Source: Haloplanus sp. XH21 (lineage in GTDB: Archaea > Halobacteriota > Halobacteria > Halobacteriales > Haloferacaceae). From it: a stretch of 64,000 nucleotides of DNA. The DNA lies in NCBI RefSeq assembly GCF_023276355.1, contig NZ_JALLPL010000001.1, forward strand, positions 868,001 to 932,000. The letters run 5' to 3'. The first letter of the stretch is position 1. Each line of letters starts with the position of its first letter. The position numbers were made by a program, and so were the translations under genes. Positions 4,701 to 38,579 of this stretch are shown piece by piece. The notes beneath the pieces are model-generated. The model saw only the letters and a list, made by a program, of their open reading frames with translations, was not told the origin of the DNA and searched no databases.

Positions 4701-4830
4701 ACGTTCCTATTCGTCCCCCGACGGGTGAACGTTTTCGTCGCTCGGCGGGGGCGCCGAGATGACGACAAGACTGGACAGATACCGACCGTGACCGCCGGAT
4801 AGACCCGGTTACCCACGGTACCGGATGACA

Positions 4831-4842
4831 ACATTAATGGCT
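4831..4842 (+). promoter_or_regulatory. Probable TATA region for fdhF
   Basis: The AT-rich stretch CATTAATG lies about 30 bases upstream of the ATG at 4867. It supports that ATG over the in-frame ATG at 4825, which would lie upstream of or inside the promoter. Confidence 0.4.
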
Positions 4843-4866
4843 GACCATCCTGATTCTTCACACATA

Positions 4867-14860: not shown

Positions 14861-15658
14861 TCAGCCCCAGTCGAGGCGCCGTTCGATCGTTGCGGGGACG
14901 AGATAGAACCCCAGACCGAGCAGCGTCAGCGCTCCGAGCGCGGCGAAGGTGGTACTGGTCCGCAGATACTCCGCGCTGTCGAACAGCTGATACCCCAGCC
15001 CCGTCTGGAGCGTGAGAAACTCCGCGACGACGGTGCCGACGACCGCAAGCGCCGCGGCGAGTTTCACGCCGGCGAAGACGCTCGGCGCGGCCGCGGGCAC
15101 GCGAACCCGGAGGAACACGCGACGGGGCGGCGCGTCGACGGAGCGGGCGAGGTCGGTGTACTCCTGGGGCACCGTCCGGAGTCCGTCGACCGACGCGATG
15201 GCGACCGGGAACACCGTCATGGTGGTGACGAGCAGTGCGCGCGCGAGGATCCCGTCGCCGATCCAGAGGAAGACGAGCGGCGCGATGGCGATCAGCGGCG
15301 CGATACGGAGCGCGATCAGATACGGATGCACCACCGCGGCGGCCACCCGCGAGCCGACCATCGCGAACGCCAGCGCGAGGCCGACGGCGACGCCGCCGGC
15401 GAGGCCGAGACCGGCCGTCACCGCCGTCGTGGCCGCGGCCGCGAGCAGCGTCTCGCGGGCGGCCATCCCGGCCACCACCACGTCGACCGGCGAGGGCAGG
15501 ATCACGCTCGGGACCCCCGTCGCGGCGACGAACCGCTGCCATCCGCCGACGGCGACCGCGAACACGACCGCCGGGGGCCAGACGGCGCTGAACGCCGACC
15601 GGAGCGTGTCGCCGCCCACCGGCCCGATTCCCCGGCGTCGGCGGTCGTTCGTCGCCAT
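14861..15658 (-). CDS. Second ABC transporter permease of the same family
   Basis: A 265-residue protein with about six transmembrane helices and an EAA loop (LARSVDAPPRRVFLRVRVPA). The ATG at 15658 overlaps the stop of the lipoprotein gene; a longer open frame upstream is only a shadow of that gene. It converges on the other permease with a 39-base gap. No second ATPase is present, so it probably shares the ATPase at 13290, possibly as a heterodimer with the 14066 permease. Confidence 0.85.
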   Translation of the reverse strand: MATNDRRRRGIGPVGGDTLRSAFSAVWPPAVVFAVAVGGWQRFVAATGVPSVILPSPVDVVVAGMAARETLLAAAATTAVTAGLGLAGGVAVGLALAFAMVGSRVAAAVVHPYLIALRIAPLIAIAPLVFLWIGDGILARALLVTTMTVFPVAIASVDGLRTVPQEYTDLARSVDAPPRRVFLRVRVPAAAPSVFAGVKLAAALAVVGTVVAEFLTLQTGLGYQLFDSAEYLRTSTTFAALGALTLLGLGFYLVPATIERRLDWG

Positions 15659-16722
15659 CAGACCATGTCGGCGTAGGAACCCACGGACTCGGCGTCGGTG
15701 TCGAGATACTCGTTCGTCCAGACGGCGTCGGGATCGATGTCGCCGTCGAGGGCGCCCGCGTCGGCGAGCGCGTCGTGGATCACGCGCCAGGGTTCGGCCT
15801 GGCTCCACCCCCAGCCGTGCTCCCTGACCGCGTCGCTGAGGGCGAACTCCGCGGCCATCGTCTCCCACTTCCGGCGCTGTTGGGCGTGCGACTCCTCGAG
15901 GACGCCGTTGGCCTCGACGAGGATGTCCGTCGCCTCGCCCGGTCGCTGGTGGGCCCACGCCGCGCCGCGGGCGGTTCCCCGGAGGAACGCCCGGACGGCG
16001 TCCGGGTTCGATCCGGCCCACTCCCGGTTCGTGGCGATCACGTGCCCGTAGGACGGGATGGTGTCGCCGACGGCGAGGCTGTCGACGGTGTAGCCCTGGG
16101 CTCCGGCGCTGATGGCGTCGCCGAAGACCCCGCCCGCGGCGTCGACGTTCCCCGAGAGGAGTTGCTGGACCGTGTCGTACCCCGTATCGACCATCTCCAC
16201 GTCCTCACGGACGCCTGCCTCCTCCAGCAGGAGTTCCGTGAGCATCCGGACCATGCCCGGCCCGGTCCCCACCGTCTTGCCGGCGAGCTGATCGGCGTTC
16301 GATAGCTCGCCGCCGAACGTCTCGCGGGTCGAAAACACCACGGCCGGACTCTTCTGCATCACGACGCCGACCGACTGCGGCGAGAGGTCGCGGCTGTTGA
16401 TGTTCAGCACCTGGTCGCTGCTGCTAACCGCGAACTTGGCGTTGCCGAGGCCCGCCTGCTTCGCCGAGAACGTCGAACCCTCTCCCGACTTGATAGACGA
16501 GAGCGTCAATCCCTCCTCCTCGTAGAACCCGTTTTCCTTCGCGACGAAGTAGGGAACGTGGAGACCGCTCGGCTTCCAGTTGAGCAGTAGGGACGCCTCG
16601 CCCGGAATCGCCGTCCTCGTCGTGGTCCCTGCGGCGTTCGTTCCGCCGCATCCCGCGAGCCCAGTCGCCCCCGCCGCGCCCGCCGCGACGAGAAAGCGCC
16701 GTCTCGTCGGCGTCTGTCTCAT
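15658..16722 (-). CDS. ThiY-like ABC substrate-binding lipoprotein
   Basis: A 354-residue protein with a Tat signal (TRRRFLVAAGAAG) and lipobox (LAGC, Cys25), so it is an extracytoplasmic lipid-anchored binding protein. The mature part begins LLLNWKPSGLHVPYFVAKEN and follows the NMT1/THI5/ThiY pattern through GWGWSQAEPW. The same GWGW motif occurs in the HTH-fused regulator, so the two probably bind the same ligand. It is the first gene of the minus-strand half of the transporter. Confidence 0.9.
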   Translation of the reverse strand: MRQTPTRRRFLVAAGAAGATGLAGCGGTNAAGTTTRTAIPGEASLLLNWKPSGLHVPYFVAKENGFYEEEGLTLSSIKSGEGSTFSAKQAGLGNAKFAVSSSDQVLNINSRDLSPQSVGVVMQKSPAVVFSTRETFGGELSNADQLAGKTVGTGPGMVRMLTELLLEEAGVREDVEMVDTGYDTVQQLLSGNVDAAGGVFGDAISAGAQGYTVDSLAVGDTIPSYGHVIATNREWAGSNPDAVRAFLRGTARGAAWAHQRPGEATDILVEANGVLEESHAQQRRKWETMAAEFALSDAVREHGWGWSQAEPWRVIHDALADAGALDGDIDPDAVWTNEYLDTDAESVGSYADMV

Positions 16723-19876: not shown

Positions 19877-20665
19877 TTACAGATTCGAGGCGTGGCCCCC
19901 GCCGTCGACGGGGATGGCGGCGCCGTTGACGTAACTCGCTCGCTCCGAACAGAGGAAGGCGATCACGTCGCCGAACTCCTCGGGTTGCCCGATGCGCTCC
20001 ATCGGATTCCCGGCACTCCACTCCTCGAGTCCCGTGTCGTAGTCGGGGTAGTCGCCGCGTTCGACGCCCTGCTCGACGAGTTCCTCGATCCGCGGCGTCT
20101 CGTGGGTGCCCGGCAACACCGTGTTCGCGCGTACGTCCGGCGCGAGTTCCGTCGAGAGGGTCTTCTCCAGGCCGACGACGCTCATCCGCACCGCGTTCGA
20201 GAGCACCAGCGAGTCGATGGCCTCCTTGACGCTCCCGGAGGTGATGGTGGTGATAGTACCGCCGCCGTCTTTCAGGTGCGGCGTCGCCTCCCGCGCCAGT
20301 CGGACGACGCTCATCACCAGCAGGTCGAAGGCCTCGTACCAGTCTTCATCGTTCGTCTCCAGGAAGGGGCCGCTCGGCGGCCCACCGGCGCTCGTCACGA
20401 GGTGATCCAGGCCACCGAACTCCTCGACCGTCCGGTCGACCAGGTGCATCACGGCCGATTCGTCGGTGATGTCGCCGCGAACGCCGATGACCTCGCCCGT
20501 CGCGTCCGCGCGGATGTCGGCGACCGCCGCGTCGAGACGGTCGGGATCACGGCCGTTGACGACGACGTTCGCGCCCTCCGCCGCGAGCGCCGTCGCCGCC
20601 GCCTTCCCCAGGCCGCTGCTCGAAGCCGAAACCAGTGCCGTATCGCCGTCGAGTCCGAGATCCAT
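19877..20665 (-). CDS. SDR-family oxidoreductase with atypical active site
   Basis: A 262-residue Rossmann protein. The nucleotide-binding turn is SASSSGLGKAAA (residues about 15-26), followed by NGRDPDRLD and SAGGPPSGPF. Ser of the active site is in TITSGS, but the YxxxK pair is replaced by LVLSNAVRMSVVGLEKTL, so Tyr and the usual Lys are missing. A subgroup of SDR proteins with an SNxxR signature is known to me from annotation only. The ATG at 20665 starts at the usual SDR N-terminus. The substrate is unknown. Confidence 0.8.
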   Translation of the reverse strand: MDLGLDGDTALVSASSSGLGKAAATALAAEGANVVVNGRDPDRLDAAVADIRADATGEVIGVRGDITDESAVMHLVDRTVEEFGGLDHLVTSAGGPPSGPFLETNDEDWYEAFDLLVMSVVRLAREATPHLKDGGGTITTITSGSVKEAIDSLVLSNAVRMSVVGLEKTLSTELAPDVRANTVLPGTHETPRIEELVEQGVERGDYPDYDTGLEEWSAGNPMERIGQPEEFGDVIAFLCSERASYVNGAAIPVDGGGHASNL

Positions 20666-20822
20666 ACGCTGACGTGTCGTGCGGGCCCCCAAAGAGTCAC
20701 CGAAGGCGGAAATCGCGCCCCAACGGTCAAGTCAGTCGGTCCCCCAGCGGGGGTATGAACGGCCACGTCGGTCCCCCACCCGGACGACGCGGCGGGACGC
20801 ACCTGCTGTCGGGGGCGGTCCG

Positions 20823-21473
20823 ATGAGCCTCGTCGCCGTCGTCGACCTCACTCATCCGGATCTCGCGCTGACGCCGACGATCCGGTCGACGGCCGCGGAG
20901 ATTCAGGTCGTCACGCACGCGGCGACCGACGCCGAGACGGGCATGTTCTTCTTCCTCGTCGAGGCGGACTCGTTCCCGACCTTCGAGGCGGCGCTCGAAC
21001 GCGACGAGACGGTCGCGGATTCGATGCTGGTCGCCGAGGCGTCGACGGCGCGCATCTACCGCCTTCGGCACACCCCCGGGACGAAACTGGTCTCGCCGGC
21101 CACCACCGAAGTCGGCGGACTGATGCTCGAAGCCGAGAGCACCGCGTCGGGCTGGTCGATCCGGATGCAGCTCCCGGACCGCGAGACGCTCAGCCAGTTC
21201 TGCGAGTTCTGCGAGCGGGAGGGCATCGAGTACACGCTCGGTCACATCTACAGCCTCGACGAGTTCTCCGTCGACGACGGCGGCGTCGGCCTCACCGACG
21301 CCCAGCGCGAAACGCTGGTGAAAGCCTACACGGAAGGGTACTTCGAGGAACCCCGCGGCACGTCGCTCGAGGAACTGGCCGACGACCTCGGTATCTCGCC
21401 GACCGCCGTCGGCGGCCGCATCCGACGCGGCGCCTCTCGGCTCATCGAGCGGACGCTCGTCGACGAGGAGTAA
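20823..21473 (+). CDS. HTH_10 (bacterioopsin-activator type) transcription regulator
   Basis: A 216-residue haloarchaeal regulator. The N-terminal two thirds form a Bat-type sensor module with no obvious cofactor site. The C-terminal 55 residues are the HTH_10 domain (LTDAQRETLVKAYTEGYF, then GTSLEELADDLGISPTAVGG and IRRGASRLIE). It is divergent from the SDR gene and just upstream (in coordinates) of the catabolic cluster, which makes it a candidate regulator of it. Confidence 0.85.
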   Translation: MSLVAVVDLTHPDLALTPTIRSTAAEIQVVTHAATDAETGMFFFLVEADSFPTFEAALERDETVADSMLVAEASTARIYRLRHTPGTKLVSPATTEVGGLMLEAESTASGWSIRMQLPDRETLSQFCEFCEREGIEYTLGHIYSLDEFSVDDGGVGLTDAQRETLVKAYTEGYFEEPRGTSLEELADDLGISPTAVGGRIRRGASRLIERTLVDEE

Positions 21474-21499
21474 GTGGCGGTTCCGGGTCCGCCGTCGGC

Positions 21500-21850
21500 T
21501 CACACGACGTTGACGTGATCGTCCCGCGGCTCCCAGAGCACGCCGGTCAGGCGGTGATCGTCGACGGCCTCGAGCGTCTCCCCGACGGTCCATCCCTGCT
21601 CGCTCATGGCGGCACTGACGGCGCCGAGGGGCACGCCCTCGCCGTCCGCGAGGCCGTCGATGACGGCGATGAGTCCCTGCTCCGCCGGGGCCGCTTGCAT
21701 CTCGTCCGGACACCGCTCCCACACGATGTCGTGACCCGTGACCGCGGTGTGGCGGCGGTAGAACGCCACGATGTCGTTCGGCTGCTCGGTCGCCGCCCGC
21801 TCTCCGCAGGCGGGGCACTCGGCGACGAAGGCGTCCATGCAGGTGGTCAC
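21500..21850 (-). CDS. Small CxxC zinc-finger-like protein
   Basis: A 116-residue protein from a GTG at 21850 that overlaps the stop of the Rieske gene; an ATG at 21838 would give 112 residues and is equally plausible. CPACGER near the start and a later single Cys (WERCPDE) suggest a metal knuckle. The C-terminal half (GLIAVIDGLADGEGVPLGAV, then VGETLEAVDDHRLTGVLWEP) looks like a small helical domain. Translational coupling to the Rieske oxygenase suggests an accessory role. The family is not recognised. Confidence 0.65.
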   Translation of the reverse strand: MTTCMDAFVAECPACGERAATEQPNDIVAFYRRHTAVTGHDIVWERCPDEMQAAPAEQGLIAVIDGLADGEGVPLGAVSAAMSEQGWTVGETLEAVDDHRLTGVLWEPRDDHVNVV

Positions 21851-23013
21851 GCGTTGTACGCCTCTTGGGCCAGTCGGTGGAACCGGTGGAGCGTGTGCTC
21901 GTTGGGTCCAAGTTGTCCCTGTGCGAGCGCGCCGGACGTGAGCCCCTCGTACTGGCGCTCGACCAGTTCGAAGTCCTCCTCCTGAAGCTGGCGACTGGTC
22001 CGGACGAACTCCTCCTCTTCCTCGGTCAGCTCCGGCTCCGCGAAGTAGTAGTCGGCGATCAACTGGAACCGACCCTCGTCGATGGGGTCGATGATGTAGG
22101 TGCCGTAGCCGTCCGCCGTGCCGTACATGTTGACCGTGAAGTTGGGCCAGAAGTAGTGGAACTGGGCCTCGTGTTCGTCGTGGATACGGAGTTCGTCCTC
22201 GACGTCCTCCTCGTGGGTGTAGTGGAGGACCCAGTGGTAGTCGTTGACCTCCAGTTCGGACTCGTCGAGCTGAATGCCCGTGATCCAGTCCTGGTGGTTC
22301 GCCTGGCAGTGATCACATTCGGAGTAGTTGCCGCCGAACGTCTTCCAGTTGCACTCCACTTCAGAGACGTACCGCCGGGCGTGTTCGTACTCCTCCAGGG
22401 GCAGGGATTCCAGGCGCGTCTTGAGCTTCCCCGCCTGTTCGGCGAGCGACAGCGACGGGTCCTCCGCGAAGTTGAGGAAGACGAGCGGCCCGATGCTGTC
22501 GGTGTGGACCTCCATGAGGCCGTTCTCGTCGGGATCTAGGCCGCCGGTGTCGTCGGAATCGAGGCCGCAAACGTCATCGTCGTCGAGGTCGGGGTTGAGT
22601 TCCGCTTCCTCGAAACTCCGCGGCGTGCTCCGCAGGTCGCCGTCCAGGTCGTAGGTCCAGAGATGGTACGGACACTGGATGCGGCTCATGGTGCCGGGAT
22701 CCGTCATCGGCGTGTCGTCGACCATCTTCGACCCGCGATGGGCACAGACGTTGTAGAACGCGCGCACCTCGCCCTCCTCGTCCCGGGCGACGATGACCTG
22801 CTTGTCACCGATGGTCCGGGTGAAGTACTCCCCCGCTTCGGAGATGCAGTTCTCGTGGCCGGCGTACACCCAGTACTGCGAGAACACCTTCTCCTTCTCC
22901 ATCTCCCAGACGTCCGGGTCGGTGAAGTATTTCGCCGGGAGAGCGTTCGTCTCGTCCGTGATGTCGGGACTCACTGCGCTCACGCGTTCGTCGTTGCCGT
23001 TCCATCGAGTCAT
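21847..23013 (-). CDS. Rieske non-haem iron oxygenase, glycine betaine monooxygenase type
   Basis: A 388-residue oxygenase alpha subunit. The Rieske [2Fe-2S] ligands are Cys90, His92, Cys114 and His117 (CAHRGS and CPYHLW). The mononuclear iron site is in GGNYSECDHCQANHQD, with His235 and His240. The NYxECxHC pattern places it with GbcA, choline monooxygenase and stachydrine demethylase. It should hydroxylate an N-methyl group, releasing formaldehyde, e.g. glycine betaine to dimethylglycine. An acidic insert (residues about 141-170) separates the domains. No reductase gene adjoins. The start at 23013 fits a TATA-like box (ACTTAGATT) about 27 bases upstream. Confidence 0.85.
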   Translation of the reverse strand: MTRWNGNDERVSAVSPDITDETNALPAKYFTDPDVWEMEKEKVFSQYWVYAGHENCISEAGEYFTRTIGDKQVIVARDEEGEVRAFYNVCAHRGSKMVDDTPMTDPGTMSRIQCPYHLWTYDLDGDLRSTPRSFEEAELNPDLDDDDVCGLDSDDTGGLDPDENGLMEVHTDSIGPLVFLNFAEDPSLSLAEQAGKLKTRLESLPLEEYEHARRYVSEVECNWKTFGGNYSECDHCQANHQDWITGIQLDESELEVNDYHWVLHYTHEEDVEDELRIHDEHEAQFHYFWPNFTVNMYGTADGYGTYIIDPIDEGRFQLIADYYFAEPELTEEEEEFVRTSRQLQEEDFELVERQYEGLTSGALAQGQLGPNEHTLHRFHRLAQEAYNA

Positions 23014-23123
23014 GTATTCCCACATCCACAGTCGGGAATCTAAGTTCCTCACCTGTCTCACGTGGGATCCTTAAGTATCGGCGCGGCGCCCCCGAGGCTG
23101 CGGCCGGTCCTCGCCCCCGTCGG

Positions 23124-23975
23124 CTACTCGTTCAGGCGCTCGCGGCGCCACGCTTCGGTGTCGGCCACCTGGTTGAACGTGTAGATATGCAGCCCCCGGA
23201 TCCCGTACTCGGGGTCCTCGGCGTACGGCGCCAGCCCGTCGACGAGTTCGTCGGGCGTGTACTTGCCGCGGGAGCCGATGAGCCGACGGACGAACGACAC
23301 CACGCCGTCCGTCTTCTGCAGGAAGCGCACCGAGTCCCCGACGCCGACCTTCCGCGAGATGCTCAGCAGCCGCTGGTAGTCCATCACGCCGGGGATGCCC
23401 ACCTCGACCGGGAGCGAGATGCCCCGCTCGCGGACGTCCGCGATCCACCCTCGCACGGCCTCGGGGTCGTAACAGAGCTGAGTGGTGATATACGTGGCGT
23501 GCGGGGCCTTCTTCTCCATGGCCTCCACCAGCGTGCGGTCGCCGAGGAAGTCGTGACCCTCGGGGTAGCCGGTGATCCCCACGTCCTCGAACGCGTAGCC
23601 GAGGTCGTCGAGCGCCACGAGGAGTTCGTGCGCGGACGCGAACTCGCCGACCGGTTCGTCGCGGTCACCCCCCGGCACGAAGATGTCGGTGACGCCCGCG
23701 TCGACGAACCGCCCGACGACCGCATCGAGGTGCGCCTCGTCGCGGACGTACCGCGCGGCGAGGTGTGGAATCGGATCGTAGCCGCGTGCGGCCGCCCGCT
23801 CGGTCCACTCGACCGTCGCGTCGAGTCCCAACTGTGGCGAGGCGGTGACGGCGATCTCGGCGCCGTCGGGCAGCCGGTTCATCTGCTCCCCGAAGCTATC
23901 GAAGGGCATCAGTTCGAACCGCGGGTCGGTGAGCAGTGCCGCGACGCCGTCGGCGTCAGTGTTGGTGTGGGACAT
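23124..23975 (-). CDS. Methylenetetrahydrofolate reductase-like protein
   Basis: A 283-residue TIM-barrel protein of the MetF family. Recognisable pieces are IAVTASPQLGLDATVEW at the start (the catalytic-Glu strand of MetF is changed here), HLAARYV, IFVPGGDRDEPVG, VGITGYPEGH, and ITTQLCYDPEAVRGWI, the last two being family hallmarks. It should interconvert 5-methyl- and 5,10-methylene-tetrahydrofolate. Lying next to a DmdA-like demethylase, it probably runs in the oxidising direction on methyl-THF. A palindrome GACCAC-CGT-GTGGTC at 24010-24024 lies just upstream. Confidence 0.82.
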   Translation of the reverse strand: MSHTNTDADGVAALLTDPRFELMPFDSFGEQMNRLPDGAEIAVTASPQLGLDATVEWTERAAARGYDPIPHLAARYVRDEAHLDAVVGRFVDAGVTDIFVPGGDRDEPVGEFASAHELLVALDDLGYAFEDVGITGYPEGHDFLGDRTLVEAMEKKAPHATYITTQLCYDPEAVRGWIADVRERGISLPVEVGIPGVMDYQRLLSISRKVGVGDSVRFLQKTDGVVSFVRRLIGSRGKYTPDELVDGLAPYAEDPEYGIRGLHIYTFNQVADTEAWRRERLNE

Positions 23976-24009
23976 GGGGTCGACGGGTCAGGCCTCGTCG
24001 GCTCTAGAC

Positions 24010-24024
24010 GACCACCGTGTGGTC
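24010..24024. promoter_or_regulatory. Palindrome upstream of the MTHFR-like gene
   Basis: GACCACCGTGTGGTC has 6-bp inverted arms and lies about 35 bases before the start codon at 23975 on the minus strand. It is a candidate operator in the promoter region. Confidence 0.3.
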
Positions 24025-24136
24025 ATACTGTCGGCTGTAACTGTTTCGAGAGAGTCGCCATCTCGGGGTGGCGAATATCCGTGTCGGCGTACAGCCGGCA
24101 GTATCGGCGTTTCGCGTCCCGCTCGGGCCACGCGGG

Positions 24137-25522
24137 TCACTCCTCGGCGTCCTTTCGAGCGTTCAGTTTCGCCTGTTCGCGTGCGCTCGGATTCACGGAC
24201 TCCGTGAACGGCACCTCCGCGACCGTCGCGTACGCGGGTTCGCCCGACGCCGTGGCGTACTCGTCCGGCAAGTGGACCGCGAACTCGAGGTCGAGGTCCT
24301 GCTCGTAGATGTCGTCGTTCAGGAGGGCGTCGGTCTCCGCCTGCAGTTTGTCCGCGGGCACGAAGCCGAGACCGATGTTCGTCTCGAGGTCCGGATTCCA
24401 CCACGGCGAGGTCATGTAACCACACTCCGTGCCCGTGTCGGGGTCGGAGATGATCCAGAAGTCCGGCGCGTAGTCCCGAATCGGCTCGCCGGCGATTTTC
24501 AGGCCGACCAGTTTGTGGGTGAACGGGTACTCGCCGGCTTCGATCAGGTCCCGTTGGCGTTCGAGTTCCGCCTTGCCGACGTAGTCGGCGTCCTTGTCGT
24601 CGGGCACCTGATAGCCGAGATTGACCTGGAAGGGCGAGGTTTCGTGGTCCATGTCCTGGCCCCACGAGAGGATGCCCGCCGCGATGCGGCGGTGGTGGCC
24701 CGGGGCGATCTGTCGCCCGCCATGATCTTTGACCGACGCCATCACGGGATCCCAGACGCGTTCGGCGTTCTTCGTCGCGTCTTTTACGTAGATTTCGAAC
24801 CCCTTCTCGCCCGAGAACCCGGTCTGGCTCACCAGCACGTCACAGCCGTCGATCTCCGCCTCCATGAGCCCGTAGTAGGGAATGTCGCTCACCGCGTCGC
24901 CCACGACATCGACCAGCACGTCCTCCGAGAGCGGCCCCTGAATCTGCATCGGGGCGACGTCGATCTCGTCTATTTCGACGTCGAACCCCATCCCGACGTT
25001 GACGCCCTGGAGCCACTGCATGAGCGTCGAATCCGAGATGGAGAACCAGAACTCGTCTTCCGCGACCCGCAGCAGGATCGGGTCGTTCAGGATGCCGCCG
25101 TCCTCGTTACAGAGGATGACGTACTTGCCGTGCATCGGGTCGATGCCGGTGGCGTCGCGGGTGATGACGTAGTCGGTGAGTGCCTCCGCATCGGGGCCTT
25201 TCACCCGAATCTGCCGTTCGACGGCGACGTCCCACAGCGTCACGCTGTTCGTGAGCGCCTCGTACTCCGCCATCGCGCCGCCGTCCTCGGGTTCGACGAG
25301 TCCGCGCGGGTGGTAGATGCGGTTGTAGACCGTACACCGCCACGCCCCCTCCTCATTGAACGACTTGTGGAAGAACGGCGACTTGCGCACGCGCGTCGAC
25401 ACGAGCATCTCGATGCCCGGGTCGCCGGTCTGGCGCAAGTTTCGTGGGAGCGTCCGGTCCGACTGGTCTATCTCCGGGTGGTTCGGGTGGCCGTCGGGGG
25501 TCGGTGCCTGATCGCTCGTCAT
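24137..25522 (-). CDS. DmdA/GcvT-family tetrahydrofolate-dependent demethylase
   Basis: A 461-residue aminomethyltransferase-fold protein, longer than glycine-cleavage T protein (about 365). It follows the pattern of DMSP demethylase DmdA: VTLWDVAVERQIRVKG, KYVILCNEDGGILNDPILL, FWFSISDSTLMQWLQG, MQIQGPLSEDVLV. The C-terminal GCV_T_C domain is at about residues 330-440. It should move a methyl or methylene group from a methylated sulfur or nitrogen compound to THF. Next to it is a MetF-like gene, which could oxidise the methyl-THF. Alternatives are a betaine or sarcosine demethylase. The start has a TATA-like box (CCTTATCTG) about 27 bases upstream. Confidence 0.8.
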   Translation of the reverse strand: MTSDQAPTPDGHPNHPEIDQSDRTLPRNLRQTGDPGIEMLVSTRVRKSPFFHKSFNEEGAWRCTVYNRIYHPRGLVEPEDGGAMAEYEALTNSVTLWDVAVERQIRVKGPDAEALTDYVITRDATGIDPMHGKYVILCNEDGGILNDPILLRVAEDEFWFSISDSTLMQWLQGVNVGMGFDVEIDEIDVAPMQIQGPLSEDVLVDVVGDAVSDIPYYGLMEAEIDGCDVLVSQTGFSGEKGFEIYVKDATKNAERVWDPVMASVKDHGGRQIAPGHHRRIAAGILSWGQDMDHETSPFQVNLGYQVPDDKDADYVGKAELERQRDLIEAGEYPFTHKLVGLKIAGEPIRDYAPDFWIISDPDTGTECGYMTSPWWNPDLETNIGLGFVPADKLQAETDALLNDDIYEQDLDLEFAVHLPDEYATASGEPAYATVAEVPFTESVNPSAREQAKLNARKDAEE

Positions 25523-25611
25523 CGTTCGTGATATTCAACCCCTCCAGATAAGGATACACCGCAGGTGGTTGTGGTGTATAAGTGACCCCTCGTTGACGAC
25601 GGTGCGTATGC

Positions 25612-25621
25612 CGCCTATTTG
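25612..25621 (+). promoter_or_regulatory. Possible TATA box for the sarcosine-oxidase-like gene
   Basis: CCTATTTGCC lies 65-75 bases before the ATG at 25685, in a divergent promoter region shared with the DmdA-like gene. GTGTATAAGTG at about 25574-25584 is an alternative. Confidence 0.3.
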
Positions 25622-25665
25622 CCCCGTTGCGCCGGGCGAACGGCCGACACAACTGTCAAGAGAGT

Positions 25666-25680
25666 CCCCGTTGAACGGGG
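25666..25680. promoter_or_regulatory. Perfect inverted repeat just before a start codon
   Basis: CCCCGTTGAACGGGG has 7-bp arms around one central base and ends 4 bases before the ATG at 25685. It could be an operator or an mRNA hairpin hiding the translation start. Confidence 0.4.
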
Positions 25681-25684
25681 GGAT

Positions 25685-26827
25685 ATGAGTTCGCGTGACG
25701 ACCGGCGCGACGTCATCGTCGTCGGTGTCGGCGGCATGGGTAGTGCGACGGCGTACCACCTCGCGCGCCGCGGGGTCGACGTGTTAGGGCTGGAGCGGTT
25801 CGACGTGCCCCACACCCAGGGCTCCTCGCACGGCGTCACCCGCATCATCCGGCGAGCGTACTACGAACACCCCTCCTACATCCCGCTCATCGAGCGGGCG
25901 TACGACCTCTGGGACGACCTGGCCGACGAGACGGGGCGGTCGGTCATCCACCGCACCGGCTCCGTCGACGCGGGTCCCGCCGACAACGTCGTCTTCGAGG
26001 GATCGCTTCGCTCCTGTGAGGAACACGACATCCCCCACGAGGTGTTGACGGGGGCGGAACTCAACGAGCGCTTCCCGGGCTACGACCTCCCGGCGGACTA
26101 CCGCGCGCTCTACCAGCCGGACGGCGGGTTCGTCGTGCCGGAGCAGTCCATCATCGGCCACACGGAGGAGGCCCAGGCCGCCGGCGCCGAGATTCACGCC
26201 CGCGAGGGCGTCGACGACTGGGCGCCCACCCCCGACGGCGGCGTTCGGGTCTGGACCGACAGGGACACCTACGAGGCCGACCGGCTCGTGCTCGCGGCGG
26301 GCGCGTGGAACTACAAGCTTGCCGACGCGCTCTCCGGCCTGGCGACTCCCGAGCGACAGGTGCTCGCCTGGTTCCAGCCCGAGACGCCGTCGCTGTTCGG
26401 CCCCGACGAACTCCCCGTCTGGAACATCGCCGTCCCCGAGGGGCGGTTCTACGGCCTCCCCATCTACGACGTGCCCGGGTTCAAACTCGGGAAATACCAC
26501 CACCTCGACGAGGCGGTCGATCCGGACGACTACGACACCGAGCCACGGCCCGCCGACGAGGTGCTGCTCCGTGATTTCACCGAGAAATACTTCCCCGATG
26601 CCGCCGGGCCGACGATGCGGCTCGCCACCTGCATGTTCACCAACTCCCCCGACGAGCATTTTATCCTCGATACGCTCCCGGATCATCCCCAGGTGGCCGT
26701 CGGCGCGGGCTTCTCGGGCCACGGCTTCAAGTTCGCCCCCGTCATCGGCGAGATACTCGCGGATCTCGCGGTCGACGGCGAGACCGACCACCCTATCGAG
26801 ATGTTCCGTCTCGACCGGTTCGCCTGA
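25685..26827 (+). CDS. Monomeric sarcosine oxidase / N-methyl amino acid oxidase-like flavoprotein
   Basis: A 380-residue DAO-family FAD enzyme. The dinucleotide-binding motif VGVGGMGSATAYHLARRG is at residues about 12-29. GSSHGVTRIIRRAYYEHP is the MSOX/SolA signature. Cys316 in CMFTNSPDEHFILD matches Cys315 of monomeric sarcosine oxidase, which binds FAD covalently. It should oxidise an N-methyl group (sarcosine to glycine) with oxygen, giving formaldehyde and hydrogen peroxide. It is divergent from the DmdA-like gene and followed by the dimethylglycine-dehydrogenase-like gene, so it fits the last step of betaine demethylation. Confidence 0.87.
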   Translation: MSSRDDRRDVIVVGVGGMGSATAYHLARRGVDVLGLERFDVPHTQGSSHGVTRIIRRAYYEHPSYIPLIERAYDLWDDLADETGRSVIHRTGSVDAGPADNVVFEGSLRSCEEHDIPHEVLTGAELNERFPGYDLPADYRALYQPDGGFVVPEQSIIGHTEEAQAAGAEIHAREGVDDWAPTPDGGVRVWTDRDTYEADRLVLAAGAWNYKLADALSGLATPERQVLAWFQPETPSLFGPDELPVWNIAVPEGRFYGLPIYDVPGFKLGKYHHLDEAVDPDDYDTEPRPADEVLLRDFTEKYFPDAAGPTMRLATCMFTNSPDEHFILDTLPDHPQVAVGAGFSGHGFKFAPVIGEILADLAVDGETDHPIEMFRLDRFA

Positions 26828-26920
26828 CCGCCGTGGCGTCGACGGCGACGCCGAAGTTAAAGGCCGCAGGTGAACAACCCGGAATCTTTTGCTGTATTCG
26901 AGTAGATACCCGTGCGTTCC

Positions 26921-29416
26921 ATGAGTGCGGATGACACACTTCCGGGGAGCGCGGGAACCGTCGTCGTTGGAGCGGGTTGTGTCGGCTGCAGCGCCGCCTA
27001 CCATCTGAGCCAGCTGGGCCGCGAGGACGTGATCGTCCTCGACCGCGGGCCGCTGTTCGAAACCGGCGGCTCGACCTCGCACGCGCCAGGGCTCGTCTTC
27101 CAGACGACCGGCAACAAACTGATGTGCGACATGGCGGCCTACACGCGGGAACTGTACTCCGATCTCGACAGCTTCCGCCAGTCCGGCGGGATCGAAGTCG
27201 CCTACACCGAGGACCGGTGGGACTTCCTCAAGCGAAAGCGGGAGTGGGGGCGGGCCTACGGACTGGACGGCGGCGAACTCCTTTCCCCGGAGGCGGTCGC
27301 CGACCGCATTCCACAGGTCGACGCCGACGTCATCCACGGCGGCTACTACCTCCCGACCGACGGGAAGGCCCACGCCGTCGACGCCTCCGCGACGATGGCC
27401 GACCGCGCCCGGGACCAGGGCGTCGAGTTCTACGGAAACACGTGGGTCGACGACGTCGAAACCGCCGACGGAGAGGTGCAGGCCGTCGTCACCGACCGCG
27501 GCCGCATCGAGGCCGACGAGGTGCTTCTGGCGACCAACATCTGGGGCCCGCTGTTCGGCGAGATGGTCGACATCGACGTGCCCCTGGTGCCCTGTGCCCA
27601 TCAGTATCTCGTCAGCGACGACCTCGACGAACTGCGGGGCGCCGACCGCGAGATCGAACAACCCATCCTCCGCCACCAGGACTACTCGCTGTACTTCCGC
27701 CAGCACGGCGACGCCTACGGCATCGGCTCGTACAACCACGAACCCCTGCTGGTCGATCCGGAGGACATCTACGGGCCGGAGCAACTCGCGGATCTCGGCC
27801 TCGAATACCCCTCCCTCCGGGAGTTCACGGCGGAGCATTTCTACGAGCACACCCATCCCGACCACGACAAGGCGCCCTACGACGCGGCGTGTGAACTCGT
27901 CCCCGCCTTCGAGGACGCGTCCTTCGAGTCGGCCATCAACGGGATGTTCTGTTTCACTCCCGACGGGATGCCGATCCTCGGGGAGACCGAGGACATCGAC
28001 GGGCTCTGGTGGTCGCTCGCCATCTGGGTGACCCAGTCCGGCGGCGCGGGCAACATCATCGCCGAGTGGATGGAGAACGGCGTCCCCCGCCTCGACGGCG
28101 AGCGAGTCGACGTCTCCGGCGCCCACATCTCCCGGTTCCAGGACCACACCGGCTCCCGCGAGTTCACGTACGGCCGCGGCGCCCAGCAGTACCAGGAGGT
28201 GTACCAGCTGATCCATCCGCGCCAGCAGCCGACCGACCAGCGCGAACTCCGGCAGAGCCCCTTCCACCACCGGACGTCGGCCCTCGACGCCGAGTTTTAC
28301 GAGAGCGACGGGTGGGAGGTGCCCCAGTGGTACGGGGTCAACGAGGAGCGGGTCGACGAGTACGATATTCCCGACCGGCCGGGCTGGCTCGGCCGCCACT
28401 GGTCGAAGGCGCAGGCGGTCGAACACCACGCCGTCCGCGAGGACGTGGCGATGGTCGACATGACGACCTTCACCGGCATCGAGGTGACCGGCTCCGGGGT
28501 GCCGGCGTTCCTGCAGGGCCTCCTCACCAACGACGTGGACATCGACGTCGGCCGGATGACGTACACGACGATGCTCAACGAGGACGGCGGCGTGCTCGCC
28601 GACCTGACCGTCTCGCGCCTCGGCCCGGACCGATACATGCTGTTCACGGGCGGCGGCTCCTCGGCGACGCTCCACTCGCGGTGGATCCGCGACCACGCGC
28701 CAGCCGACGTGACCGTCACCGTCCACGATTCGAGCCTCGCCGGCGTGGGCGTGTTCGGCCCCGACTCGCGGGCCGTGCTGGAGCCGCTCGTCGAGACCGA
28801 CCTCTCGAACGACGCGTTCCCCTTCTACTCCGTCGAGGAGACGTACCTCGACGGGATTCCCGTGACGATGCTGCGCCTCTCCTACGCCGGCGAACTCGGC
28901 TGGGAACTCTACACGCCCATGGAGTACGGCACCCGCCTCTGGGACACGGTGTGGGAGGCCGGCCAGGAGGAGGACATCGTCCCGATGGGGTGGGCGGCGC
29001 TCGACTCGACCAGCCTGGAGAAAGGGTATCGCCTCTGGGGGGCGGATCTCACGCCCGAACACACGCCGTTCGAGGCGAACCTCGGGTTCGCGGTCGACCT
29101 CGACACCGACTTCGTCGGCAAGGACGCACTCGGCGACGGAGACCCCGATCAGCGTCTCGTTCCGCTGACCCTCGACGAGCAGGGGGCGATCGTCGACGCC
29201 GGCAGACCCGTCACCGACGGTGACGACGTGCTCGGCTACACCGCGCGCGCGGACTACGGCTACACCGTCGACGCCGGTATCGCCTACGCGTACCTGCCGA
29301 CGGCGTACGCCGACGCCGGCCAGCCACTCGCCGTCGAATACGAGAACCAGCGGTTCGACGCCACCGTGCGCGAGGAACCACTGTTCGACCCCGAACGGGA
29401 GAAACTCCTCCGATGA
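26921..29416 (+). CDS. Dimethylglycine/sarcosine dehydrogenase-like FAD plus GcvT protein
   Basis: An 831-residue two-part enzyme. The N-terminal DAO domain has GAGCVGCSAAYHLS (residues 17-30) and GSTSHAPGLVFQ, where His54 matches the covalent FAD histidine of dimethylglycine dehydrogenase. An FAO-type linker domain follows, then an aminomethyltransferase (GCV_T and GCV_T_C) domain from about residue 440 (GIEVTGSGVPAFLQGLLTND, then YAGELGWELY and LDSTSLEKGYRLWG). It should oxidise dimethylglycine to sarcosine and pass the carbon to THF as methylene-THF. The ATG at 26921 is chosen over a GTG at 26912 because it begins close to the FAD motif. Confidence 0.88.
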   Translation: MSADDTLPGSAGTVVVGAGCVGCSAAYHLSQLGREDVIVLDRGPLFETGGSTSHAPGLVFQTTGNKLMCDMAAYTRELYSDLDSFRQSGGIEVAYTEDRWDFLKRKREWGRAYGLDGGELLSPEAVADRIPQVDADVIHGGYYLPTDGKAHAVDASATMADRARDQGVEFYGNTWVDDVETADGEVQAVVTDRGRIEADEVLLATNIWGPLFGEMVDIDVPLVPCAHQYLVSDDLDELRGADREIEQPILRHQDYSLYFRQHGDAYGIGSYNHEPLLVDPEDIYGPEQLADLGLEYPSLREFTAEHFYEHTHPDHDKAPYDAACELVPAFEDASFESAINGMFCFTPDGMPILGETEDIDGLWWSLAIWVTQSGGAGNIIAEWMENGVPRLDGERVDVSGAHISRFQDHTGSREFTYGRGAQQYQEVYQLIHPRQQPTDQRELRQSPFHHRTSALDAEFYESDGWEVPQWYGVNEERVDEYDIPDRPGWLGRHWSKAQAVEHHAVREDVAMVDMTTFTGIEVTGSGVPAFLQGLLTNDVDIDVGRMTYTTMLNEDGGVLADLTVSRLGPDRYMLFTGGGSSATLHSRWIRDHAPADVTVTVHDSSLAGVGVFGPDSRAVLEPLVETDLSNDAFPFYSVEETYLDGIPVTMLRLSYAGELGWELYTPMEYGTRLWDTVWEAGQEEDIVPMGWAALDSTSLEKGYRLWGADLTPEHTPFEANLGFAVDLDTDFVGKDALGDGDPDQRLVPLTLDEQGAIVDAGRPVTDGDDVLGYTARADYGYTVDAGIAYAYLPTAYADAGQPLAVEYENQRFDATVREEPLFDPEREKLLR

Positions 29417-29647
29417 TGCCCGTATCGTCCCGGACACACCCGTCAGAACGCCAAGGCTTATTTGGTACAACGAATAGCACAGTGTGTGGATCTCCCGTGG
29501 CGGACGGTATCAGCACTCACACCAAGGCGGTACTGTACCGCCGCCGGCGCGTGCGGGAGGAGCGCACAGGACGACAGACCACGCGAATCGACACACGACA
29601 TATGAACGACCTACGACGATCGACCGGGGCTAGCCGGGGGGAATCGC
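29417..29647 (+). promoter_or_regulatory. Promoter and structured leader of the BCCT transporter
   Basis: GGCTTATTTGG at 29455-29465 is a likely TATA box, so transcription would start near 29488 and leave a leader of about 160 bases. Inside it lies the perfect palindrome GGCGGTACTGTACCGCC (29526-29542, 8-bp arms around one base). An open frame crossing the region shows no protein-like sequence. Confidence 0.45.
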
Positions 29648-31504
29648 ATGACTGATTCGGACGACTCGACCGGGAAGATGTCCGACGGCCTCCAGGTGGA
29701 GCTGTTCCATCCGGAGTCGGACCGCGAGCCCGGTGACACCAACATTCAGGCACTCGGATTCGACATCCATCCGGTCGTCTTCCCCGTGGCGTTGGTGCTC
29801 GTCGTACTGTTTATCGTACTCACCGTTTTCTTCCGAACGGTCGCGCAGGCGCTCGGATGGACGATGGTCGTCACTCAGCAGACGGCACGGGAGAACGGCT
29901 GGGAGGTCCTTCGCCAGGTCCAGGATGGCGTCGTCGTGCATCAGACCGCCGGCGACGCGTACACCGTCATTTTCAATTTCATCGGCGCCAACTTCGGCTG
30001 GTTCTACCTGCTGGCGGTGAACATCTTCATCGCTACGCTGCTGTTTTTCGCCTTCAGCAAGTACGGCAAGATTCGGATCGGCGGCGTCGGGGCGGAGAAG
30101 GAGTTCAGCGACTTCGCGTGGATGGCGATGCTGTTCAGCGCCGGCATGGGAATCGGTCTCATGTTCTTCAGCGTCTCCGAACCGCTGTACTACTTCCAGA
30201 GCGTCCCCGGTTTCTTCAGCGCCGAAGGCGGGACGGGCGCGGCGGCCTCCGCCGCGATGGCACAGACGTTCTTCCACTGGGGCTTCCACCCGTGGGCCAT
30301 CTACGGCCTCGTCGGCCTCGGCCTCGCGTTCTTCTCGTTTAACCGCGGCCTGCCGCTCACCTTCCGGTCCATCTTCTGGCCGCTTCTCGGCGAGCGGATC
30401 TACGGCTGGCCGGGGCACGTCATCGACCTCGTGACGGTGTTCGCGACCCTGTTCGGTCTGGCGACATCGCTCGGTCTCGGCGTCGCGCAGGTGAATACCG
30501 GGCTGTCGTACGTGGGCGGTGACCTCCTCGGTCTCGTCTCCATTCCGACGAACACGTTCGTGCAGATCCTGCTCATCGCGGGCATCACCGGCATCGCCAC
30601 CCTGTCCGTCGCGGCCGGTCTCGACGGCGGCGTCAAGCGCCTGAGCACGCTCAATCTCTACTTGATGTTCGCGCTGCTCGGGTTCCTGCTCATCGTCGGC
30701 CCGACGGTGTACATCCTCGGCGCGTGGGTCGAGGGGCTCGGGGCGTACTTCGGCAGCATCATCGAACTCGCCTTCTTCCGCGGCACGCTGGCCGAGGGCG
30801 GGTCGACCGTCACCGCCTGGACCGTCTTCTACTGGGGGTGGTGGATCGCGTGGTCGCCCTTTGTGGGGATGTTCATCGCCCGCATCTCGAAAGGACGGAC
30901 CGTTCGGGAGTTCGTTCTGGGCGTGCTCGTGTTGCCGGCGATGTTCTCGACCATCTGGCTCGCCACGTTCGGCGGGAGTGCCCTGTACAACTCGCTCGTG
31001 GGCAACGGAGCGGCCCTGGCCACGTACAATGATGTCGGCCAGACCGTCGCCATGTTCGCCATGCTCGAGCAGTTCCCGCTCGGGGCGCTGTCGGGTATCC
31101 TGGCGACGATACTCGTGGTCACGTTTTTCGTCACGTCCTCCGACTCGGGATCCCTGGTGGTTGACCATCTGACCTCCGGTGGCAAACACGACGTGCCGAA
31201 AGTCCAGCGCGTCTTCTGGGCGATCATCGAAGGGGTCGTCGCCGCAACCCTCCTGTGGGGTGGCGGACTCGGCGCCCTGCAGACGGCCGTGATCACGACC
31301 GGACTCCCCTTCGCAGTTATCCTCTGTCTGATGTGTTACACCGTCTATCTCGGCCTCAGCCACGAGTACCAGATCCTCGAATCCGAGGAGTTCCGGGACC
31401 GCATCGCGAAGATATCCGAACAGGAGGACGTGGACGTGGTGACCTCCGGCGACGAGATGGTTACTGACATTCGGGAGGAGAGTGAATCGAGTCCGAGCGA
31501 CTGA
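29648..31504 (+). CDS. BCCT-family betaine/carnitine/choline (or DMSP) transporter
   Basis: A 618-residue protein with about twelve transmembrane helices. It carries the BCCT glycine stretch GMGIGLMFFSVSEP, whose GMGIG form goes with Na+ coupling as in BetP, and the aromatic box FYWGWWIAWSPFVGMF of the substrate-binding helix. FFHWGFHPWAIYG is a further hallmark. A hydrophilic acidic N-tail (about 40 residues) and C-tail (about 60) flank the core; in BetP such tails sense osmotic stress. It lies directly downstream of demethylation genes, so it probably imports their substrate: glycine betaine, and possibly DMSP, choline or carnitine. Confidence 0.92.
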   Translation: MTDSDDSTGKMSDGLQVELFHPESDREPGDTNIQALGFDIHPVVFPVALVLVVLFIVLTVFFRTVAQALGWTMVVTQQTARENGWEVLRQVQDGVVVHQTAGDAYTVIFNFIGANFGWFYLLAVNIFIATLLFFAFSKYGKIRIGGVGAEKEFSDFAWMAMLFSAGMGIGLMFFSVSEPLYYFQSVPGFFSAEGGTGAAASAAMAQTFFHWGFHPWAIYGLVGLGLAFFSFNRGLPLTFRSIFWPLLGERIYGWPGHVIDLVTVFATLFGLATSLGLGVAQVNTGLSYVGGDLLGLVSIPTNTFVQILLIAGITGIATLSVAAGLDGGVKRLSTLNLYLMFALLGFLLIVGPTVYILGAWVEGLGAYFGSIIELAFFRGTLAEGGSTVTAWTVFYWGWWIAWSPFVGMFIARISKGRTVREFVLGVLVLPAMFSTIWLATFGGSALYNSLVGNGAALATYNDVGQTVAMFAMLEQFPLGALSGILATILVVTFFVTSSDSGSLVVDHLTSGGKHDVPKVQRVFWAIIEGVVAATLLWGGGLGALQTAVITTGLPFAVILCLMCYTVYLGLSHEYQILESEEFRDRIAKISEQEDVDVVTSGDEMVTDIREESESSPSD

Positions 31505-34875: not shown

Positions 34876-35445
34876 CTACTCCTCTCGCATGTGTGCCAGA
34901 ATTTGGAAGAATCGAAATGCGGGTTCATCGAAACTCTTCTTTGTTTCTGATGCACGTTCCCGGATCTCACTCACCCGGTTGTTGTACTCGCCGTTGATTA
35001 CGAGTTCAATTGATTCGTCATAGTCGCTCTCGAACTGTTGCGTCATCTCTTCCAACCCGTCGGTCAGATGACCCTCGGATACATACGGCGACCAGAACTG
35101 AAACCTGTACTCCTCAGCATCGTCAAAAACGTCGGTGACTAAGTCGTAGTCCTCCTCGAATTTATGGAAGATACGTTCGAGCGAGTGCTGATAACTCTCA
35201 TTTCCGTATTTGCTCCACCATCCTTCCTCGTCGGGAGAGCCTGAATATAGCGAGCCTCGAATATGAGTGACGACCTCGCAAGCATAGACCGTCTGTTCCC
35301 CGTTTATTGATTTGACGCCAAGCACGTCGAGTTCCATCTGTCTACCCGCTTCTTTCGACCGCTGATTGTACGAGACGAGTTCGCAGTCGTTGATGACCCG
35401 GAGGTATGCCCCGACAATTAGTTCGCCAATCTGTGTCTGAATCAT
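34876..35445 (-). CDS. Small nuclease-like partner of the DUF262 protein
   Basis: A 189-residue protein. The first 60 residues resemble a PD-(D/E)xK nuclease core: Glu8 in the first helix (IGELIVGAYL), Asp40 (MELDVLG) and Glu57 (VYACEVVTH). The final Lys of the motif is not present, so activity is uncertain. The rest is helical and acidic. It overlaps the stop of the DUF262 gene by 4 bases, so both are made together. Base composition is more AT-rich than the surroundings, consistent with recent transfer. Confidence 0.6.
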   Translation of the reverse strand: MIQTQIGELIVGAYLRVINDCELVSYNQRSKEAGRQMELDVLGVKSINGEQTVYACEVVTHIRGSLYSGSPDEEGWWSKYGNESYQHSLERIFHKFEEDYDLVTDVFDDAEEYRFQFWSPYVSEGHLTDGLEEMTQQFESDYDESIELVINGEYNNRVSEIRERASETKKSFDEPAFRFFQILAHMREE

Positions 35446-38222: not shown

Positions 38223-38579
38223 AGCACTATAGAAGAAAGCATATTTAAACAGACTTTGCCCCACGGTGAAACTGTTCTGAAAGTGACGAGCCCTATATGA
38301 CGCCTCAGAGTGTACTCTATTCGCCTTTTGATTACGACTGTCCTCTCTCAGCGGGTAGCAGACGCGATTCTCTGACGTTCGTCCACTTATTTCCCGAAAC
38401 GTATGGATAGAAAGCTGGCCTCGGCACTCATAGGGCTCGTCACCATCGGGAGCCACCCCGACTCGGAGCGGTGCGCTCGTCATCGGCCAGTGGCCCCTAC
38501 GTGATGCGCTCGGAAAGAGGCTTCTGCACGCCGTCGTCTCGGAATGGTGAACGTCCCCGTCGACGTACCGCCGGCCTCG
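38223..38579. other. Region between the defence module and the palindromic repeat
   Basis: No gene supported. It contains the DUF262 promoter, the inverted-repeat arm TATGGATAGA (38402-38411) and the direct repeat TGGCCTCGGCAC (38416-38427). The DUF262 frame stays open up to 38483 but the translation there is not protein-like and lies upstream of the promoter. Confidence 0.5.
38241..38249 (-). promoter_or_regulatory. TATA box of the defence module
   Basis: TTTAAATAT on the minus strand is 20-27 bases before the ATG at 38222, the best TATA match in the region. It decides the start of the DUF262 gene. Confidence 0.6.

Follow-up and report, generated by a model that had tools for sequence, protein, structure and literature searches.

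The 64,000-nucleotide stretch of the Haloplanus sp. XH21 genome analysed here (contig NZ_JALLPL010000001.1, positions 868,001 to 932,000; hereafter the window) carries at 20817-31504 a betaine-type gene set, which we read, with a probability of somewhat under 0.6, as a system that imports glycine betaine and removes its methyl groups step by step, with two parallel routes for the first step. Its genes encode a Rieske non-haem iron oxygenase, a small Zn-finger-like protein of the HVO_B0008 family, a protein of the DmdA/GcvT type (DmdA-like), an MTHFR-like protein, flavoproteins resembling dimethylglycine oxidase (DMGO) and monomeric sarcosine oxidase (MSOX), a BCCT transporter and an HTH_10/BAT regulator. 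We infer that the Rieske protein, as an O2-dependent demethylase, and the DmdA-like protein, as a folate-dependent methyltransferase, are interchangeable first steps (“heads”) of one pathway. The family identities, the conservation of the modules, their alternation between genomes and the coupling with MTHFR and formate-tetrahydrofolate ligase (FTHFS) come directly from the computation. A preliminary description of this DNA had proposed that an imported compatible solute is turned into glycine and C1 units. Glycine betaine is the best-supported solute, whereas the alternative of dimethylsulfoniopropionate (DMSP) finds no support; and while breakdown as such is supported, the description overlooked the combination of two alternative first-step modules.

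Distribution of the Two Proposed First-Step Modules

The proteins of the cluster were searched singly against 146 genomes of the order. The DmdA-like gene is present in 36 genomes and the Rieske gene in 15, such that 32 genomes have only the former, 11 only the latter, four have both (the source genome, G000, together with G057, G083 and G115) and 99 have neither; three further genomes (G029, G040, G081) with matches that were GcvT-like only (33-34% identity) had been left out, lowering the DmdA-like count from 39 to 36. MTHFR, found in 38 genomes, accompanies the DmdA-like gene in 36 of 36 cases (Fisher 3.5e-32), and is present in 32/32 DmdA-only genomes as against 0/11 Rieske-only genomes. 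FTHFS (52 genomes, after G086, which lay below the family cut-off, was removed from an initial 53) occurs in 30/32 DmdA-only, 0/11 Rieske-only and 18/99 genomes with neither head; counted by the DmdA-like gene, this is 34/36 genomes with it and 18/110 without. A close DMGO (at least 60% identity) was detected in 27 genomes, comprising 16 DmdA-only genomes, nine Rieske-only genomes and two with both heads, and in none of the 99 genomes that have neither.

Gene neighbourhoods were compared for the loci of at least 14 kb, namely 30 of 34 DmdA loci and 11 of 12 Rieske loci. The 34 DmdA loci represent 34 of the 36 DmdA-like genomes (not G000 and G111) and include three genomes with both heads (G057, G083, G115); L083 is counted among the 11 Rieske loci though its genome, G115, has a DmdA-like gene elsewhere on the contig. 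The Rieske loci contain the HVO_B0008-family gene (11), an ammonia-lyase (10), a close DMGO (9) and MSOX (9), with MTHFR in none, and the DmdA loci contain MTHFR (25), a DMGO of any identity (20), an ammonia-lyase (15), FTHFS (12), BCCT (11) and MSOX (2). Two DmdA loci (L071 and L072, from G077 and G093) combine the DmdA-like gene with MTHFR, DMGO, MSOX, serine hydroxymethyltransferase (SHMT), BCCT and HTH_10 genes and have neither the Rieske gene nor its HVO_B0008-family partner. Relatives of the HTH_10 regulator (at least 48% identity) stand in 9/30 DmdA-like loci and 4/11 Rieske loci. Among named species, both heads are found in Haloarcula marismortui (plasmid pHMA411) and Halalkalicoccus paucihalophilus, the DmdA-like head in Halococcus morrhuae and H. 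thailandensis, and the Rieske head in Natribaculum breve, Natrinema zhouii, Halarchaeum nitratireducens and Halogranum amylolyticum. Genes annotated around the DmdA-like genes of named species encode enzymes of folate and C1 metabolism (DHFR, DHPS, aminodeoxychorismate synthase, MTHFD, formate-THF ligase, formate dehydrogenase, SHMT; THF, tetrahydrofolate).

Within a single family (f14), genus g22 is of the Rieske type (with both heads in its member G057) and genus g42 of the DmdA type. In the tree of DMGO, well-supported branches force at least three changes of the first-step label, and therefore the head enzyme has been exchanged more than once. The DMGO search of the genome contigs gave 10 loci; the tree leaves out L110, L112, L113, L114 and L115, whose contigs were already in the set, and L124, which is the same as L079, and L117 belongs to G139, already in the profile.

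Other candidates for the first step were sought in the same genomes. The BHMT family was found in 0/146 of them, against 9/14 control genomes, and Ring_hydroxyl_A occurs in just one (G069) of the 16 DmdA-only genomes with a close DMGO. The MttB family is present in five of the 146, all with the DmdA-like gene; because none of the five has a close DMGO (0 of 27), a corrinoid, MttB-type first step cannot account for the overall pattern, though those five genomes may use it. The MttB-family genes (G076, G012, G015, G030, G039) are without in-frame stops and lie near FTHFS in G012 and G076.

The Proposed DmdA-Like Head

The DmdA-like protein is related to the DMSP demethylase DmdA but lies outside the clade of annotated DmdA, and a betaine methyltransferase activity is predicted. 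We read it as a betaine enzyme because it alternates with the Rieske protein at the head of one shared set of downstream genes, because other candidates for the conversion of betaine to dimethylglycine are missing, because 5-methyl-THF as its product would account for the constant association with MTHFR, and because the tests for DmdA fail in score, clade, neighbours and the residue at one position. By score, the nearest structures are the aminomethyltransferase 1woo and the GcvT-like 3tfh (DmdA), which are nearly tied, and the best NCBIfam match is the DMSP demethylase model NF009133, at 239.8 bits well below its cut-off of 410. The label given in the preliminary description is borne out by a GCV_T domain above cut-off, whereas the C-terminal GCV_T_C domain reaches 20.6 bits and falls short of the required 25.9. 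In the tree, the 25 haloarchaeal rows make up a clade of their own (100/100) and the three annotated DmdA make up another (100/100), with only eight bacterial DmdA or DmdA-like rows included and long-branch warnings for the outgroups.

In the alignment the folate-contacting S161, E243 and Y245 are kept in 47/47 haloarchaeal rows (which include repeats of some genomes), and all 47 have Phe where the eight bacterial relatives have Trp or Tyr. Passages of a published study tie this Trp to DMSP binding, assign the Ser, Glu and Tyr roles in folate contact, and group AEM59334.1 and others apart from DmdA (PMC7487153); the mapping of positions is ours. The DMSP-linked Trp is not absolute, because the three roseobacter proteins annotated as DmdA carry Tyr at this position. 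Some of the accessions that the study sets apart (AEM59334.1 and others) we take to be haloarchaeal. As for neighbours, the 34 DmdA loci of the profiled genomes contain no DmdC-like protein, no DmdB-like protein and one weak DmdD-like match (33%), and five loci from named species contain only one DmdB-like match (L093, 28%, about 10 kb away); the same search recovered both positive-control loci. A structure prediction from five closely related sequences gave a mean pLDDT of 45.6 and was not used.

A paralogue in Haloarcula sp. GH36 (68% identity) has neither MTHFR nor DMGO nearby, and therefore not every member of the DmdA-like family belongs to the betaine system. A second DmdA-like subfamily (L073, L074, L097; about 62-71% identical to the window protein) likewise lies without MTHFR nearby, and its copy in G115 (L074) matches in two pieces, as if frameshifted.

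The Proposed Rieske Head and its Zn-Finger Partner

The Rieske protein is probably a glycine betaine N-demethylase. Its metal-site motifs are kept (CAH...CPYH, ECDHCQANH, EEDFELVE), the last two aligning with ECYHCGPAH and PEDLNLVE of CntA, and they fit the pattern of N-demethylase-type sites (CxH...CxxH; ExxHxxxxH plus Asp). The nearest solved structure is that of carnitine monooxygenase (6y8j), and the match to the GbcA equivalog NF058607 amounts to 130 bits over residues 37-263, with a cut-off of 670.

The HVO_B0008-family gene accompanies the Rieske gene in 11/11 Rieske loci of at least 14 kb, and the 13 plasmid records that contain it are the same 13 that contain a Rieske protein of more than 60% identity. 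The preliminary description, right in the genes it named, overlooked this constant neighbour at 21500-21850. Assembly, regulation or electron transfer are candidate roles for the HVO_B0008-family protein that stands beside the Rieske gene throughout L075-L086.

Downstream Enzymes, Transporter, and the Proposed Pathway

The DMGO-like protein matches dimethylglycine oxidase 1pj5 with 593 bits over residues 16-832, has the FAD and GcvT halves fused, and retains the Asp that differs in 3gsi. For the MSOX-like protein the structures favour MSOX (304 bits) over N-methyltryptophan oxidase (MTOX, 193 bits), whereas in NCBIfam it passes the N-methyltryptophan oxidase model (497.9, cut-off 257) and not soxA_mon (319, cut-off 479.65). 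The MTHFR-like protein is matched at the level of the family (Pfam 44.9, cut-off 24; equivalog TIGR00676 46.2, cut-off 293.7). The transporter is a clear member of the BCCT family (TIGR00842 467, cut-off 407.55; betaine_BCCT 505.6, cut-off 650), with the trimethylamine transporter as the best structural match (484 bits), followed by choline and betaine transporters, BetP at about 313 bits; it is a probable betaine importer.

In the pathway that we propose, BCCT would import betaine, one methyl group of which would leave as formaldehyde through the Rieske enzyme, O2 and electron carriers of the host, or would be passed by the DmdA-like protein to tetrahydrofolate, giving 5-methyl-THF that the MTHFR-like protein would oxidise to methylene-THF. 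Both routes would end in dimethylglycine, which the DMGO-like enzyme would convert to sarcosine and methylene-THF and the MSOX-like enzyme would take on, as sarcosine, to glycine. In the relatives, glycine would be led to pyruvate by SHMT and serine/threonine ammonia-lyase, and surplus C1 units would be oxidised through formate-THF ligase and formate dehydrogenase. We give even odds to the fuller proposal that the DmdA-like protein is a new, direct and O2-independent betaine:THF methyltransferase, that together with MTHFR and FTHFS it allows betaine methyl groups to be oxidised with a yield of ATP, and that it has repeatedly been swapped with the Rieske enzyme, the source genome keeping both; if this were true, the source genome could use betaine with and without oxygen. 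Elsewhere in the window (4825-6993, plus strand) a gene encodes a formate dehydrogenase-like molybdopterin oxidoreductase. This protein is 40% identical to an annotated formate dehydrogenase of a DmdA-type island and could act on the formate that C1 breakdown yields, oxidising it.

A DMGO-like gene also stands in G012 (L130, 1580-4120, 846 residues; 35% identity to that of the window), followed by ETF beta, ETF alpha, MTHFD, MTHFR, formate dehydrogenase, formate-THF ligase and MttB-like genes. This order equals the one published around the most abundant protein in the proteome of the anaerobic haloarchaeon Halodesulfurarchaeum formicicum HTSR1, which the relevant passages call “glycine cleavage T” (PMC5437934). 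The gene order suggests that the HTSR1 protein may be a DMGO-like flavoprotein and not a plain T-protein, and its abundance would then be suggestive of heavy N-methyl catabolism.

Several observations weigh against the betaine pathway as drawn here. Some DmdA-like genomes have only distant DMGO-like proteins (35-41%), one genome (G035) has a 45% DMGO with neither head, and MTHFR occurs in two genomes (G117, G129) that have no DmdA-like gene. G076 was scored as DMGO-negative in the profile, yet L126 contains a 37.5% relative; six candidates were scored per genome, so that counts of low-identity DMGO are lower bounds. The Fisher tests ignore shared ancestry, and most of the DmdA-only genomes with a close DMGO come from one family (f5). 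No partner reductase (GbcB) was seen among the ten proteins around the cluster scanned with Pfam and NCBIfam, and the transporter lies below the betaine equivalog cut-off and nearest to the trimethylamine transporter. By identity, the DmdA-like protein is closest among bacteria to proteins of Loktanella and Phaeobacter (36-41%) and of Marivivens (38%), whose genes adjoin acyl-CoA genes typical of DMSP breakdown, whereas a relative in Lichenihabitans sits instead with MTHFR, purU and folD. Finally, passages of a genome comparison report that betaine gave no growth enhancement in H. walsbyi, a species with DMGO-like genes close to BCCT, and cite an absence of growth on betaine for H. utahensis (PMC3102087).

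These points leave room for other readings, of which the strongest, though still unlikely, is that betaine is degraded through Rieske, DMGO and MSOX alone and that the DmdA-like and MTHFR-like proteins serve another co-imported methyl donor such as DMSP or a different compound of the sulfonium or betaine type. The DMSP-type operons of the bacterial relatives and the DMSP demethylase model as best NCBIfam match, though below cut-off, speak for it; against it, 16 genomes pair a close DMGO with the DmdA-like gene and have no Rieske gene, dmdC is absent and dmdB and dmdD are not convincingly present near the DmdA-like gene, and Phe replaces the DMSP-linked Trp or Tyr in 47/47 rows (for the Trp, parts of PMC7487153).

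A substrate other than betaine for the whole cluster, for instance carnitine, proline betaine or a trimethylamine-type compound, with DMGO and MSOX acting on its N-methyl products, seems to us a good deal less probable. The nearest solved relatives of the Rieske protein and of the transporter, a carnitine monooxygenase and a trimethylamine transporter, would fit such a substrate, as would a GbcA score of 130 against a cut-off of 670, whereas a 593-bit DMGO next to an MSOX-type oxidase is best matched to the series betaine, dimethylglycine, sarcosine. Cleavage of carnitine releases trimethylamine and requires malic semialdehyde dehydrogenase, and no such dehydrogenase was seen in the Pfam and NCBIfam scans of the cluster. 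That the DmdA-like and MTHFR-like proteins mainly supply methyl groups for methionine and balance C1 units is the least probable, since although the 5-methyl-THF expected as product can supply methionine synthase, and MTHFR is usually biosynthetic, the coupling with FTHFS (34/36 vs. 18/110), DMGO, BCCT and ammonia-lyase points to oxidation, as does the most abundant HTSR1 protein (“glycine cleavage T” in the passages of PMC5437934), if it is DMGO-like.

Relation to Known Systems

Bacterial betaine catabolism, for example in Pseudomonas and Arthrobacter, proceeds through GbcAB, dimethylglycine oxidase or dehydrogenase, and sarcosine oxidase. The haloarchaeal cluster resembles the GbcAB route in joining a Rieske protein, DMGO-like and MSOX-like enzymes, a transporter and a regulator, but differs in that its Rieske protein is far below the GbcA cut-off, a Zn-finger partner adjoins in place of a reductase gene, and a second, folate-dependent head module is present. 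With DmdA, the haloarchaeal head shares the GcvT-type family, the folate-contacting Ser, Glu and Tyr and, probably, a redox-neutral transfer of methyl to THF; it differs in its identity of 31% to DmdA of Phaeobacter DSM 17395, in being about 90 residues longer, in its separate clade, in Phe for Trp/Tyr and in the absence of convincing dmdB/C/D neighbours. The GcvT/DmdA-type proteins SAR11_1265, encoded beside metF, and SAR11_1303, beside betaine transporter genes, have been proposed to demethylate DMSP or betaine in the sections of PMC3160333 that treat them. The gene next to metF (SAR11_1265) is thus alike in setting, while SAR11 is bacterial, the function there is likewise only proposed, and for betaine SAR11 possesses BHMT, whose family occurs in 0/146 haloarchaeal genomes.

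Given earlier work, it is no surprise that a haloarchaeon has a betaine-degradation cluster. Parts of a comparison by Anderson et al. (2011; PMC3102087) describe DMGO-like genes near BCCT in H. marismortui, H. volcanii, H. turkmenica and H. walsbyi and suggest from them a use of betaine, dimethylglycine or sarcosine; the text mentions neither a Rieske protein nor DMSP-type demethylation, and those parts describe no alternation of two heads. The same suggestion appears for Halococcus hamelinensis in passages of PMC4325475. The preliminary description had presented betaine as food as notable, which the suggestion of 2011 anticipates, and had held that haloarchaea usually hoard such solutes; according to portions of two publications, KCl mainly balances the salt and organic solutes are not generally hoarded (PMC3102087, PMC2329653). 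With KCl as the main osmotic strategy, consumption of betaine is therefore not in conflict with osmoadaptation. What appears to be new is the joining in one cluster of two interchangeable first steps that are usually separate modules, and the implied, predicted activity of the DmdA-like protein; in the open-access literature searched we found neither a two-head alternation nor a folate-dependent betaine demethylase in haloarchaea, and either may exist elsewhere.

Brines probably contain glycine betaine, and haloarchaea are among the main heterotrophs there; so far, their use of it has only been proposed on the basis of genes, with negative results reported for two species. Because the head modules alternate, betaine use becomes testable in named, culturable species. 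The alternation also predicts a betaine-to-THF methyl transfer, indicates the haloarchaea that could consume betaine in the absence of oxygen, and has a bearing on how haloarchaea compete with methylotrophic methanogens.

Organization of the Locus

The contig that hosts the window is 2.53 Mb long, in a genome of 2.94 Mb. From a divergent point at about 25.55 kb two arms run outward, the minus-strand arm in the order DmdA/GcvT-like, MTHFR-like, Rieske alpha subunit and HVO_B0008-family gene, and the plus-strand arm in the order MSOX-like, DMGO-like and BCCT; the regulator gene, on the plus strand, lies at the left end of the cluster (Table 1). All genes named in the preliminary description (Rieske, DMGO-like, MSOX-like, DmdA-like, MTHFR-like, BCCT and HTH_10) are full-length open reading frames with Pfam matches above cut-off. 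Its interval of 19877-31504 covers a real gene set and wrongly takes in a short-chain dehydrogenase/reductase (SDR) gene at the left, which stands outside the recurring neighbourhood; being found in few of the relatives' loci, mostly at low identity, it was dropped as a member. For several genes the true start probably lies further downstream than the first start codon, because relatives align only from that point: the start of the Rieske gene is more likely near 23013 and that of the MSOX-like gene more likely 25685.

Table 1. Coordinates of the betaine-type gene set and of the adjoining SDR gene in the window.
Feature	Coordinates	Strand	Basis
HTH_10/BAT transcriptional regulator, probable cluster regulator	20817..21473	+	Pfam HTH_10 and BAT above cut-off
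Small Zn-finger-like protein, HVO_B0008 family	21500..21850	-	PF25214/PF25215 (HVO_B0008_N/C) above cut-off
Rieske non-haem iron oxygenase alpha subunit, probable glycine betaine N-demethylase	21847..23061	-	PF00355, PF00848 above cut-off
MTHFR-like protein, probably 5-methyl-THF to 5,10-methylene-THF	23124..23975	-	PF02219 above cut-off; 7xg9 nearest structure
DmdA/GcvT-like protein, predicted THF-dependent glycine betaine methyltransferase	24137..25522	-	PF01571 above cut-off
Monomeric sarcosine oxidase-like flavoprotein	25619..26827	+	DAO; closest MSOX 1el5, 304 bits, whole length
Dimethylglycine oxidase/dehydrogenase-like protein, FAD and folate (GcvT) halves	26912..29416	+	DAO, FAO_M, GCV_T, GCV_T_C; 593 bits to 1pj5
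BCCT transporter, probable betaine importer	29648..31504	+	PF02028 579 bits; TIGR00842 above cut-off
SDR gene	19877-20692		outside the recurring neighbourhood

The term “island” used earlier is not borne out by composition, the G+C of the cluster (0.65-0.69) being like that of much of the window and giving no foreign-DNA signal, and no tRNA gene was found; the patchy distribution and the plasmid location in relatives do suggest mobility of the gene set. Promoter and terminator scans gave nothing above chance, with a promoter model that is bacterial and a host that is an archaeon.

Elsewhere in the window, a gene at 35442-38483 on the minus strand encodes a protein of 1013 residues that combines GmrSD_N and GmrSD_C domains, as in type IV restriction or defence, and also matches the PADLOC models HEC-06/Orf5; it lies in a G+C-poor stretch (34-38 kb, about 53-54% G+C) and was likely acquired. 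Two NMT1/ThiY-like substrate-binding proteins, encoded at 3132-4100 (plus strand) and 15658-16722 (minus strand), are 38% identical, and the second of these genes stands among open reading frames at about 13.1-16.0 kb that, as named by eye, are ABC-transporter-like.

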